22,685 bases of DNA from Nitrospinae bacterium RIFCSPLOWO2_12_FULL_45_22 (GTDB taxonomy: Bacteria; 2-12-FULL-45-22), in the NCBI GenBank assembly GCA_001803565.1, contig MHDQ01000130.1:1-22685 (forward strand), given 5' to 3'. The number at the start of each line of letters is the position of its first letter. Position 1 is the first letter of the stretch. Below, piece after piece: positions 2,581 through 5,675 of this stretch. Under the pieces are notes generated by a model. The model was given only the letters and a program-made list of their open reading frames with translations. It did no database searches and was not told the origin of the DNA. Position numbers and translations under genes: made by a program.

Positions 2581-3375
2581 ATGGCAGAAAAAACACTGTT
2601 TAGTCAAGTGGGTGAAAAGGAAGTCACCAGGGCGATAATAGGCGAGTTTGCCAAGCAATTTCAAGAATATGTTGAGAGCGATGTAATCATTATTGGTGCT
2701 GGCCCCAGTGGTCTTATGGCCGGGAAAGAATTGGCCCATGAGGGCTTCAAGGTCTTACTGGTAGAGCGGAATAATTATCTGGGTGGAGGGTTCTGGATTG
2801 GCGGTTATTTAATGAACAAGGTAACCGTGAGGGCTCCAGCCCAGGAAGTCCTGACAGAGTTAGGAATTCCTTTCAAGGAAGCTGTCCCGGGCCTCTATGT
2901 AGCCGATGGCCCCCATGCTTGCTCTAAACTCATTGCTGCGGCTTGTGATGCTGGGGTAAAAATCATCAATATGACCAAATTTGACGATATTGTCTTGCGG
3001 GAAGGGAACCGGGTAGCTGGTGCAGTCATTAACTGGACTCCAGTATCCGCTATGCCCAGGGAGATTACCTGTGTAGACCCTATTGCTATTGTGTCCAGGA
3101 TGGTAGTAGATGCCACTGGACATGATGCCTCTGTAGTAAGCAAGCTGGAGGAACGGGGCCTGATCAAGACCGTTGGCTATGGGGCTATGTGGGTCGAGAA
3201 ATCAGAAGACCTGGTAGTAGAGCATACTGGCGAAGCACATCCGGGCTTAGTGGTTATGGGGATGGCAGTATCTACCCTGTATGGACTGCCCAGGATGGGA
3301 CCGACCTTTGGGGCTATGCTGCTCTCCGGCAGAAAAGGGGCCGAGGTTATTAAGACCCGCCTCCGCAAATCTTAA
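2581..3375 (+). CDS. thi4: Thi4-family thiazole synthase (ADP-thiazole from NAD+ and glycine)
   Basis: Thi4 makes the adenylated thiazole carboxylate precursor of thiamine from NAD+, glycine and sulfur, with iron. The 264-residue length is that of archaeal/bacterial Thi4. Visible are the dinucleotide-binding [10 protein letters not shown] (39-48), [14 protein letters not shown] (62-75), INWTPV (150-155), VVDATGHDA (175-183) and the C-terminal [16 protein letters not shown] (235-250). C164 lies directly before V-D-P, where Arabidopsis and yeast enzymes have the sulfur-donating cysteine (C-M-D-P) and sulfide-using methanogen enzymes have histidine. This suggests a cysteine-dependent, possibly single-turnover enzyme. 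TGAGGGGG lies about 10 bases before the ATG. It leads the cluster with the unknown gene and thiC; the operon arrangement is inferred. Confidence 0.92.
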
Positions 3376-3427: not shown

Positions 3428-4300
3428 ATGAAGAAGGGGAGGAGATTAGTTCGCCCCACCCATATATTACTTTATGCCCCGGAAAAAACTGGTGCTTTAA
3501 ATCTCGAAGAGAGTGTTGATTATCTCAGTTCTCTGCTTGATAAGGTCAAGATTGAAGTTAGAAAAGACTTTATATCGCATAGTTTGGAAGGGACAGCACC
3601 AGAGCAGAAAGAGGGTTTTATTGCCCGACTGGCCCATGACCTGGCAAGGACCAAGGTCAGGAATATCCTGAAGCCCGACTTCTCTTTCCCACCCCTTTAC
3701 GGCGAAATCCGGTATGAAGAAGAAAGGATTCGGGAACCTGGTAGCAAGCCCAGCGGTATCTTTTACGATGGTTTCCAATTGCAAGAAGTCTTCTGGAGCC
3801 TGATCCCTAGAGAAGAGGCTAATCTAAACCATATGCATATCATTTTTACTGGACAGTTAGTTGGCACCTGGGATGAGGACGACCTTAAGTATCATGCCCG
3901 AACCAGTATTTATGGGTACCCAAATATCCTTTCTACTACCGGTTTGGTAGAGGCACCAGCTAAGCCCAGAGAATACTATTTGTTAAAGCAGCAAATACCT
4001 GCGGCTGTCCTGGATGAAGTAGCTATATTGGCTCTGAAAGAGAAACTAAAGGGTCGTTTCCTCGATTATGACGATCCCGGAACTACCGAGGTCATGAAGG
4101 GTTATGTAGCCCAGGCCCTGGTAGGCCAGGCAACGGGGTTTCCTTTTTGCCAGGATGTAAACTGCCGCCTGTTCAATGCCCATTGGCAAGAAGAGATGCT
4201 CCAGGCCCAGTTAAAGAGTGATTATGAATTTTGTCCCTACCATAACGAAATCCTGGAAGAGATCAAGAGACAGGCAGCAATAATAACCAATAACCAATAA
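3428..4300 (+). CDS. Unknown protein with archaemetzincin-like Cys pattern, no HExxH (possibly DUF6775)
   Basis: A 290-residue soluble protein of no established function, lying between thi4 and thiC on the same strand. A conserved-looking core (HMHIIFTGQLVGTWDEDD at 135-152, HARTSIYG at 156-163, VEAPAKPREYY at 174-184) is followed by a C-terminal cysteine block: G237-x-x-F240-C241-x4-C246-x-L248, then C269-x-x-H272. The M54 archaemetzincin signature is HExxHxxGxxHCx4CxMx17CxxC. Spacing from the glycine through the second cysteine is identical, but HExxH reads A230-L-V-G-Q234 and the third histidine is F240, so proteolysis is unlikely. I think related proteins are labelled DUF6775 putative metallopeptidase, recalled and not checked. 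ATG 3428 follows a purine-rich GGAAGGGGCAGGGG. The last codons and the stop lie in a heptamer repeat. A thiamine role is inferred from position only. Confidence 0.6.
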   Translation: MKKGRRLVRPTHILLYAPEKTGALNLEESVDYLSSLLDKVKIEVRKDFISHSLEGTAPEQKEGFIARLAHDLARTKVRNILKPDFSFPPLYGEIRYEEERIREPGSKPSGIFYDGFQLQEVFWSLIPREEANLNHMHIIFTGQLVGTWDEDDLKYHARTSIYGYPNILSTTGLVEAPAKPREYYLLKQQIPAAVLDEVAILALKEKLKGRFLDYDDPGTTEVMKGYVAQALVGQATGFPFCQDVNCRLFNAHWQEEMLQAQLKSDYEFCPYHNEILEEIKRQAAIITNNQ

Positions 4301-4330
4301 CCAATAACCAATAACCAATAACCAATAACC
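4282..4330 (+). repeat. Seven tandem copies of AATAACC
   Basis: Seven exact 7-base units run from 4282 to 4330. The first units encode the ITNNQ end and the TAA stop (4298-4300) of the preceding gene. Copy-number change would alter only the thi gene spacing, because the stop falls within the third unit. This is a simple-sequence repeat prone to slippage, without spacers, so not CRISPR. Confidence 0.95.
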
Positions 4331-4391
4331 AACATAAGTTTTGTACTTTTCGCTTTAAGCTTTGCCTTTTACTAAGGATGGGTTAAGTATT

Positions 4392-5675
4392 ATGAGTACT
4401 CTAATAGAAAAAGCCAGAGAGGGTATTGTTACCCCGGAGATGGAATATATAGCCCAGGCTGAAGGGTTATCAGCGGAGACTATCCGAGAGGGAATAGCTC
4501 AAGGGGAAATTGTTATTACCCAGAATAACCGCCATAAAAATATTAAACCTTTAGGGATTGGCAAGGGGTTAAAGACCAAGCTGAATGCCAATATTGGAAC
4601 ATCAGTAGATCAAGTGGACCTGGCCCGGGAGTTAGATAAGCTGGAAATAGCTATCAAGGCCGGTGCTGATACTATTATGGATTTGAGTACTGGTGGGCCG
4701 TTGGATGAGATCAGGCGGGCTATTATCGAAAGGTCTACCGTGCCGATAGGAACTGTCCCCATCTACCAGGCAGCCGTAGAAAAGGTGCGCTCAGGGGCCT
4801 CCATAGTCCACATGGCAGCAGACGATATGTTCCGGGTCATAGAACAGCATGGGCAGGATGGGGTAGATTTTATCACGGTCCATTGTGGGGTCACCAAAGA
4901 AACTGTTACCCGGGTCCAGAGGGAAGGCCGGCTGCTGGATGTAGTTAGCCGGGGTGGGGTCTTTCTGGTAGAATGGATCATCTATAATAATAAAGAGAAC
5001 CCCCTCTACCAGGAATATGACCAATTGGTGGCTATTGCCAAGGAGTATGATATGACCCTGAGCCTGGGCGATGGCCTCAGACCCGGCTGCCTGGCAGATG
5101 CCACAGACCGGGGTCAGGTACAGGAGACCATCTTGCTAGGTGAACTGGTTGATCGGGCCAGGGAGGCTGGGGTACAGGTCATGGTAGAAGGACCGGGCCA
5201 TGTACCTATGCACCAGATCGAAGCCAATGTCCTGTTCCAGAAGCGGCTATGCCACGGGGCACCGTTTTATGTCCTGGGGCCACTGGTAACCGATATTGCC
5301 CCGGGTTATGACCATATTACCGGGGCTATTGGTGGGGCTATTGCAGCGGCCGCGGGGGCCGATTTCTTGTGCTACGTAACGCCATCTGAACACTTACGCC
5401 TACCCACCTTAGAAGATGTAAAAGAAGGGGTTATTGCCGCCAAGATTGCTGCCCATGCCGCTGATATCGCTAAAGGGGTCAGGGGTGCCATGGACAGGGA
5501 TATCAAGATGGCCAAGCTCCGCAAAGAATTGAACTGGGAAGGTCAGATCCAGATGGCCTTGGATCAAGAAAGGCCCCGACAGTATCGCCAGGAAAGCCCA
5601 CCGCATGATAAAGATGTTTGCACCATGTGTGGTGAATATTGTGCCATTAAGGTTTTGCATAAAGAAAGAACTTAA
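4392..5675 (+). CDS. thiC: Phosphomethylpyrimidine synthase ThiC
   Basis: ThiC is the radical-SAM enzyme that rearranges aminoimidazole ribotide to HMP phosphate, the pyrimidine half of thiamine. The frame also opens at a TTG at 4362, but the ATG at 4392 gives the usual MSTLIEKAREGIVTPEME start and 427 residues, normal for the shorter ThiC class. Visible blocks are KLNANIGTS (63-71), DTIMDLSTGG (93-102), VPIGTVPIYQA (117-127), DFITVHCGVT (159-168), LGDGLRPG (225-232), EGPGHVPMHQIE (266-277) and GPLVTDIAPGYDHIT (296-310). The C-terminal cluster motif is C410-x2-C413-x3-C417, one residue shorter in the second gap than the textbook CX2CX4C. It follows thi4 and the unknown gene. No TPP riboswitch was seen. 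Confidence 0.96.
   Translation: MSTLIEKAREGIVTPEMEYIAQAEGLSAETIREGIAQGEIVITQNNRHKNIKPLGIGKGLKTKLNANIGTSVDQVDLARELDKLEIAIKAGADTIMDLSTGGPLDEIRRAIIERSTVPIGTVPIYQAAVEKVRSGASIVHMAADDMFRVIEQHGQDGVDFITVHCGVTKETVTRVQREGRLLDVVSRGGVFLVEWIIYNNKENPLYQEYDQLVAIAKEYDMTLSLGDGLRPGCLADATDRGQVQETILLGELVDRAREAGVQVMVEGPGHVPMHQIEANVLFQKRLCHGAPFYVLGPLVTDIAPGYDHITGAIGGAIAAAAGADFLCYVTPSEHLRLPTLEDVKEGVIAAKIAAHAADIAKGVRGAMDRDIKMAKLRKELNWEGQIQMALDQERPRQYRQESPPHDKDVCTMCGEYCAIKVLHKERT

Follow-up and report, generated by a model that had tools for sequence, protein, structure and literature searches.

The gene analysed here lies in a 22,685-nucleotide stretch of Nitrospinae bacterium RIFCSPLOWO2_12_FULL_45_22 (contig MHDQ01000130.1, the whole of which is termed the window), directly downstream of thi4 and directly upstream of thiC, with all three genes on the same strand. 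Its product belongs to the DUF6775 family and is a pseudo-peptidase, and the core members of this family were found to pair with the cysteine type of the thiazole synthase Thi4, in which this cysteine donates the sulfur. The window protein scored 283.5 bits against the DUF6775 profile PF20565 (cut-off 27; profile positions 3-258 of 259) and 249.3 bits against the overlapping DUF7001 profile PF22529 (cut-off 27). The identity of both neighbours, as given in the original prediction made from the sequence alone, was confirmed by Pfam and NCBIfam. The open reading frame of the DUF6775 gene begins with ATG preceded by a purine-rich stretch, and 52 bases separate it from thi4. The thiC reading frame was listed from a TTG at 4362, the ATG at 4392 being the likelier start. 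The window genome holds a single copy of DUF6775, and a search of it for a true archaemetzincin (M54, PF07998) found none; no plasmid homologue of the DUF6775 protein was found either. The features of the locus are summarized in the table.

Table. Genes and protein features at the thi4-DUF6775-thiC locus, in window positions.
Feature	Position	Strand	Evidence
thi4, thiazole synthase, Cys type (C164 in ITCVDP = yeast Cys205 position)	2581..3375	+	PF01946 1.6e-69, TIGR00292 5.6e-74; Cys motif read
DUF6775/DUF7001 protein, archaemetzincin-fold pseudo-peptidase, 290 aa	3428..4300	+	PF20565 2.1e-84, PF22529 5.2e-74; AlphaFold2 model; archaemetzincin structure matches
H156-A-R158, predicted strand equivalent to substrate-side edge strand	3893..3901	+	alignment and model; structural role inferred
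Helix 219-236, equivalent of metzincin active-site helix, with A230-L-V-G-Q234 in place of HExxH	4082..4135	+	
C241-x4-C246, zinc-type ligands 1 and 2	4148..4165	+	invariant, 53/53 relatives
N250-A-H-W-Q254, core-specific motif after Met-turn position L248	4175..4189	+	alignments
C269-x2-H272, second zinc-type ligand pair	4232..4243	+	invariant, 53/53 relatives
thiC, hydroxymethylpyrimidine phosphate (HMP-P) synthase	4392..5675	+	PF01964 2.5e-200, NF009895 2.6e-200

The conservation of the protein was analysed in an alignment of 20 sequences and in a wider set of 53 aligned members that also includes those from genome surveys. One scan gave 21 relatives with 38-55% identity over the best segment, and relatives occur across many phyla at 36-51% identity over the alignment. 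In the 20-sequence alignment F240, C241, C246, C269 and H272 are invariant, L248 is nearly so and G237 is common but not invariant; H156, R158, E175, K224, Y226, Q229 and the N250-A-H-W-Q254 motif are among the further invariant positions. The wider set revealed that C241, C246, C269 and H272 are 100% conserved (53/53) even in those members where most other motifs are gone, which marks the pattern as more than a chance one, and the invariant cysteines are confined to these three zinc-type ligands.

The HExxH motif of metzincins is absent from the window protein and from all the relatives examined. The window protein reads A230-L-V-G-Q234, then G237 and F240, the latter standing for the third His, and the HExxH-equivalent positions are mostly hydrophobic in the family. 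At position 234, which corresponds to the second His of the motif, 21 of the 41 core members have His while the position varies freely; this His looks like a relic. The metal site also departs from the Cys4 signature of archaemetzincins (CX4CXMX17CXXC), as DUF6775 has an invariant Cx4CxLx20CxxH, a site variant of three Cys and one His. Because the Met-turn position is followed by the second pair after 20 residues in the window protein and after 17 in archaemetzincins, the Gly-to-second-Cys part alone has the same spacing as the M54 signature, as the original prediction had pointed out. Its reading of the individual residues (ALVGQ 230-234 for HExxH, F240 for the third His, C241-x4-C246-x-L248 and C269-x2-H272) was also correct.

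The fold was predicted with AlphaFold2 using 20 sequences, and the model of the window protein reached a predicted local distance difference test (pLDDT) score of 89.7 and a predicted template modelling (pTM) score of 0.88. Realignment of the Foldseek candidates with VIA-align 2 ranked the three solved archaemetzincins at the top (3lmc, Z 14.2; 2x7m, 14.1; 4axq, 12.6; over 156-168 residues), followed by metzincins of other families at Z 9.2 (TACE) or below, indicating an archaemetzincin-type metzincin fold for the predicted model. A hidden Markov model (HMM) comparison, HMM to HMM, with archaemetzincins from the carrier genomes aligned C241, C246, C269 and H272 with the four cysteines of the metal site, and F240 with the third His; the significance of this register is weak by itself (E 0.036, probability 1.4%). 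DUF6775 is, by the predicted model, an archaemetzincin relative that lost catalysis, because fold, register and conserved ligands agree; the suggestion of a protease-derived fold retaining only its structural-zinc scaffold was thereby borne out. The protein is not filed as an archaemetzincin, since both HExxH and the M54 profile fail: PF07998 matched none of the 20 DUF6775 members at E up to 10. Sequence searches against solved structures, whether started from the protein or from its alignment, gave nothing meaningful.

The genomic association of the family was then considered. In 27 of the 56 deduplicated loci other than the window, the DUF6775 gene is immediately preceded by a thi4 gene on the same strand. 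The thi4-DUF6775 distances range mostly from a 29-base overlap to 40 bases; gaps of less than 30 bases are frequent, and several loci show a 4-base overlap. The DUF6775 loci belong to Latescibacterota, Desantisbacteria, Nitrospirae, Chloroflexota, Clostridia, Armatimonadetes, Hadesarchaea and Thermoplasmata, the phylum being taken from the record title or from the phylum surveyed. The expected link with thiamine genes thus held for thi4 and not for thiC, which adjoins DUF6775 only in the window, in L006, L007 and L008 and in some Chloroflexota. None of the outcomes that had been named as speaking against the original prediction (an unrelated fold, another cysteine spacing, no thiamine association) occurred. 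A thiamine pyrophosphate (TPP) riboswitch precedes the thi4-DUF6775 operon in L006, L007, L008 and L018, so that the DUF6775 gene is under thiamine control in these four relatives; unlike in them, the search of the window itself detected no TPP riboswitch.

ThiG was present in 0 of 36 DUF6775 carrier genomes as against 8 of 14 control genomes. Thi4 was enriched among the carriers by Fisher tests that ignore relatedness, both in Thermoplasmatota (13/14 carriers and 54/180 others, p 4e-6) and in Armatimonadota (21/26 carriers and 4/20 sampled others, p 7e-5). In Thermoplasmatota a Thi4 of the Cys clade was found in 12 of 14 carriers and in 7 of 180 others, some of the clades being judged by score alone. 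Many of the surveyed genomes are fragmentary assemblies. The distances among DUF6775 proteins and among Thi4 proteins correlate with a Mantel r of 0.80, computed with no species-tree control, as would be expected of genes that move as a unit.

The Thi4 partners were next divided into the published Cys and His kinds (PMC4215014, PMC8454699). The window Thi4 carries the cysteine at the yeast Cys205 position, where the methanogen-type Thi4 motif reads LHVDP. Of the 29 deduplicated Thi4 genes that adjoin DUF6775, 28 are of the Cys type and one has Tyr; with four new Chloroflexota neighbours (4/4 Cys-type) the total came to 32 of 33 readable adjacent Thi4 genes. Six further core carriers have thi4 elsewhere in the genome, and it is Cys-type in all six. 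Of the sampled Thi4 genes not adjoining DUF6775, 24 are non-Cys, and core DUF6775 stood beside no examined Thi4 gene of the non-Cys kind (His-type clade). Several Thermoplasmatota genomes possess both kinds, and there DUF6775 adjoins the Cys kind. In the Thi4 tree a fully supported branch separates the Cys from the non-Cys kinds, and core DUF6775 occurs solely with the former. Chloroflexota were then taken as a phylum new to the analysis. The survey of 301 Chloroflexota genomes gave five DUF6775 carriers, in all of which the gene lies directly downstream of a Cys-type Thi4 (5/5), and DUF6775 in none of the seven other Thi4 genomes (0/7), five of which have the LHVDP or LHIDP type while two have lost the Cys. 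In these two (L128 and L129) the Thi4 genes form one group within the Cys clade, carry Leu or Ala for the Cys (PREVALLDP, PREIAALDP) and lie directly after thiC without DUF6775; this Cys loss is a single evolutionary event in the predicted direction. The pairing of core DUF6775 with the Cys-type Thi4 is new here and was not foreseen in the original prediction, and no paper on such a tie was found in the literature searched.

A distant form of DUF6775 occurs in twelve Armatimonadota genomes (loci L053-L065). This divergent form keeps the metal ligands together with P165, S169, E175, D216 and G225, and has lost T147, Y184, H252, W253 and also H156, a residue invariant in core DUF6775. It is not beside thi4 in the loci covered, and its host genomes mostly have a non-Cys Thi4. 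This makes the residues lost from the subfamily candidates for the function connected with Thi4. A single-sequence model of the divergent member L058 reached a pLDDT of 41.

Based on these results, the DUF6775 protein is regarded as a pseudo-peptidase with a predicted structural Cys3His metal site and without the catalytic zinc site, which somewhat probably acts as a dedicated partner of the Cys-type Thi4, either helping in its cysteine-dependent sulfur step or taking care of the spent enzyme or the product. The observed basis consists of the family, the fold match, the loss of HExxH, the invariance of the ligands, the thi4 operon, the absence of ThiG and the pairing with the Cys clade. The fold would be held by the predicted Cys3His metal site, and the former peptide-binding cleft would be relined by the edge-strand residues H156 and R158 and by N250-A-H-W-Q254 after the Met-turn, which we place at the cleft from the topology and strand order of the model. 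The relined cleft may now bind Thi4, most likely through its Cys loop or as spent enzyme in complex with the product. The bound DUF6775 protein would then help in the sulfur step that depends on the cysteine, or attend to the dehydroalanine form of Thi4 with its product still bound; the candidate chemistries are sulfur reloading, product release and clearance of the spent enzyme. Because the pairing follows the Cys of Thi4, the favoured point of action is the cysteine-dependent sulfur step or a stage after it. The narrower proposal, that the protein returns sulfur to the dehydroalanine of Thi4 or strips off the tightly held product so that the suicidal, single-turnover Thi4 becomes reusable, is considered quite unlikely.

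Several observations weigh against the partnership with Cys-type Thi4 or against the fold on which it is built. Plain Foldseek against the PDB gave no match below 0.001 for the DUF6775 model. L025 has Tyr for the active-site Cys of Thi4, yet DUF6775 follows it. A Cys-type Thi4 is found without DUF6775 in a Thermoplasmatota group (L078-L084) and in one Armatimonadota genome (L101), and the control Haloferax volcanii is without the family though a Cys-type Thi4 has been reported for it (PMC4215014). Five Armatimonadota carriers have no visible Thi4, perhaps owing to incomplete assemblies. The formal test of independence gave one supported contrast and three in all and is underpowered, there being one deep split and few changes; relatedness could therefore explain much of the statistic for the Cys tie. 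In several of the L078-L084 loci the neighbours of the Cys-type Thi4 include ThiF, a ThiI-type protein carrying an NFACT-R_2 domain, NifU/NifS-type genes and a small helix-turn-helix (HTH) protein, which perhaps meet the same need in another way.

Among the other explanations, the protein could be the missing hydrolase that converts ADP-thiazole (ADT) to thiazole phosphate and adenosine monophosphate (AMP), with a new active site formed by H156, R158, K224, Y226, Q229, H252 and neighbouring residues. The co-operonic position with thi4, the riboswitches of the four relatives, the many invariant polar residues and the carriers without ThiG would all suit such an enzyme. Plain ADT hydrolysis would however be expected with both Thi4 types, so that the pairing with the Cys type counts against it: organisms with a non-Cys Thi4 need the ADT step too, yet are without core DUF6775, while several genomes with a Cys-type Thi4 lack the family, and the fold is that of no known phosphohydrolase. 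The hydrolase is hence judged unlikely. The delivery of metal or sulfur to Thi4, which the original prediction had put forward, would be analogous to the TRASH proteins whose genes are published beside non-Cys THI4 (PMC8454699). Sulfur genes do neighbour several DUF6775 loci, namely ThiF, ThiS, a cysteine synthase type PALP and HcyBio in L004; PALP, Cys_Met_Meta_PP and PAPS reductase in L005; ThiI-type proteins in L009 and L012; and a NifU-type protein with a class V aminotransferase in L009. Such genes also adjoin the Cys-type Thi4 where DUF6775 is lacking, and therefore go with this Thi4 type in general. A regex scan for TRASH-like motifs near the carrier loci gave scattered, chance-like matches only. 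Sulfur carriage by the DUF6775 protein itself was rejected, as the ligand cysteines alone are conserved and no conserved free thiol is left for it; delivery as a whole appears decidedly unlikely.

A regulatory role, the other function first suggested, has a precedent in CarG of Myxococcus xanthus. This archaemetzincin is proteolytically inactive, serves a non-proteolytic role and requires its four cysteines for both function and stability (PMC3427221), and the dead active site of DUF6775 would be in line with this analogy. As a primary role, a transcriptional or enzyme regulator is disfavoured because the operon already stands behind a TPP riboswitch in four relatives, and the tight coupling to thi4 with pairing by Thi4 type points to the Thi4 enzyme rather than to transcription; the regulator is very unlikely. 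An active metallopeptidase, as implied by the Pfam title of DUF6775 ('Probable metallopeptidase family') and by the metzincin fold, is extremely improbable and was rejected, given that no member has HExxH and that the third His is Phe.

The DUF6775 protein was further compared with the closest known systems. The solved archaemetzincins of family M54 (AfAmzA 4axq, MkAmzA 2x7m and MlAmzA 3lmc) share with DUF6775 the predicted overall fold and the series G-x-x-x-C-x4-C-x-(M/L) followed by C-x2-C/H, with a metal site by the Met-turn; this Cys4 site is structural in the archaemetzincin structures (PMC3427221). DUF6775 differs from them in lacking HExxH and the third His, in having Cys3His for Cys4 and Leu for the Met-turn Met, in its enlargement by insertions (290 aa compared with 160-190) and in being encoded with thi4. 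CarG is likewise an inactive archaemetzincin-type protein, but its HExxH differs by a Glu-to-Gln change and the protein works within a transcriptional regulator, whereas DUF6775 has lost the whole site and has Thi4 as its apparent partner. The TRASH proteins resemble DUF6775 as Cys-containing metal-site proteins encoded beside a prokaryotic thi4 (PMC8454699), and differ in belonging to another family and in accompanying the non-Cys Thi4. The window protein is a clear member of PF20565 and PF22529; the 'probable metallopeptidase' label of DUF6775 stands in contrast to the members examined, which are without the catalytic residues. No paper naming DUF6775 or DUF7001 was found in the literature searched; COG4900 was checked as an alternative name, and the paper found lists it only as a crenarchaeal protein.

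The Cys-type Thi4 is described as destroying itself after one reaction, at an estimated cost in plants of 2-4% of biomass (PMC8454699), and no enzyme has been assigned to the step that follows, in which thiazole phosphate is freed from ADT (PMC4215014). DUF6775, conserved with exactly the Cys-type Thi4 in bacteria and archaea, is a direct candidate for the problem of self-destruction or of ADT release, which suggests an unrecognised helper in the making of vitamin B1. The analysis also corrects a misleading Pfam name, and the proposed biosynthetic role would join the short list of repurposed metzincins.

Some minor features of the window were also recorded. About 450 bases ahead of thi4 (2134-2580) hold no listed gene on the + strand, and a strong promoter-like site (11/12) lies upstream of thi4 at 2449-2476. 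A perfect tandem repeat of the heptamer AATAACC (7.3 copies, 4282-4332) runs over the final codons and the stop codon of the DUF6775 gene and some way into the gap before thiC. Positions 347-1219, upstream of surE, encode a DUF7065/DUF7064 protein of unknown function.
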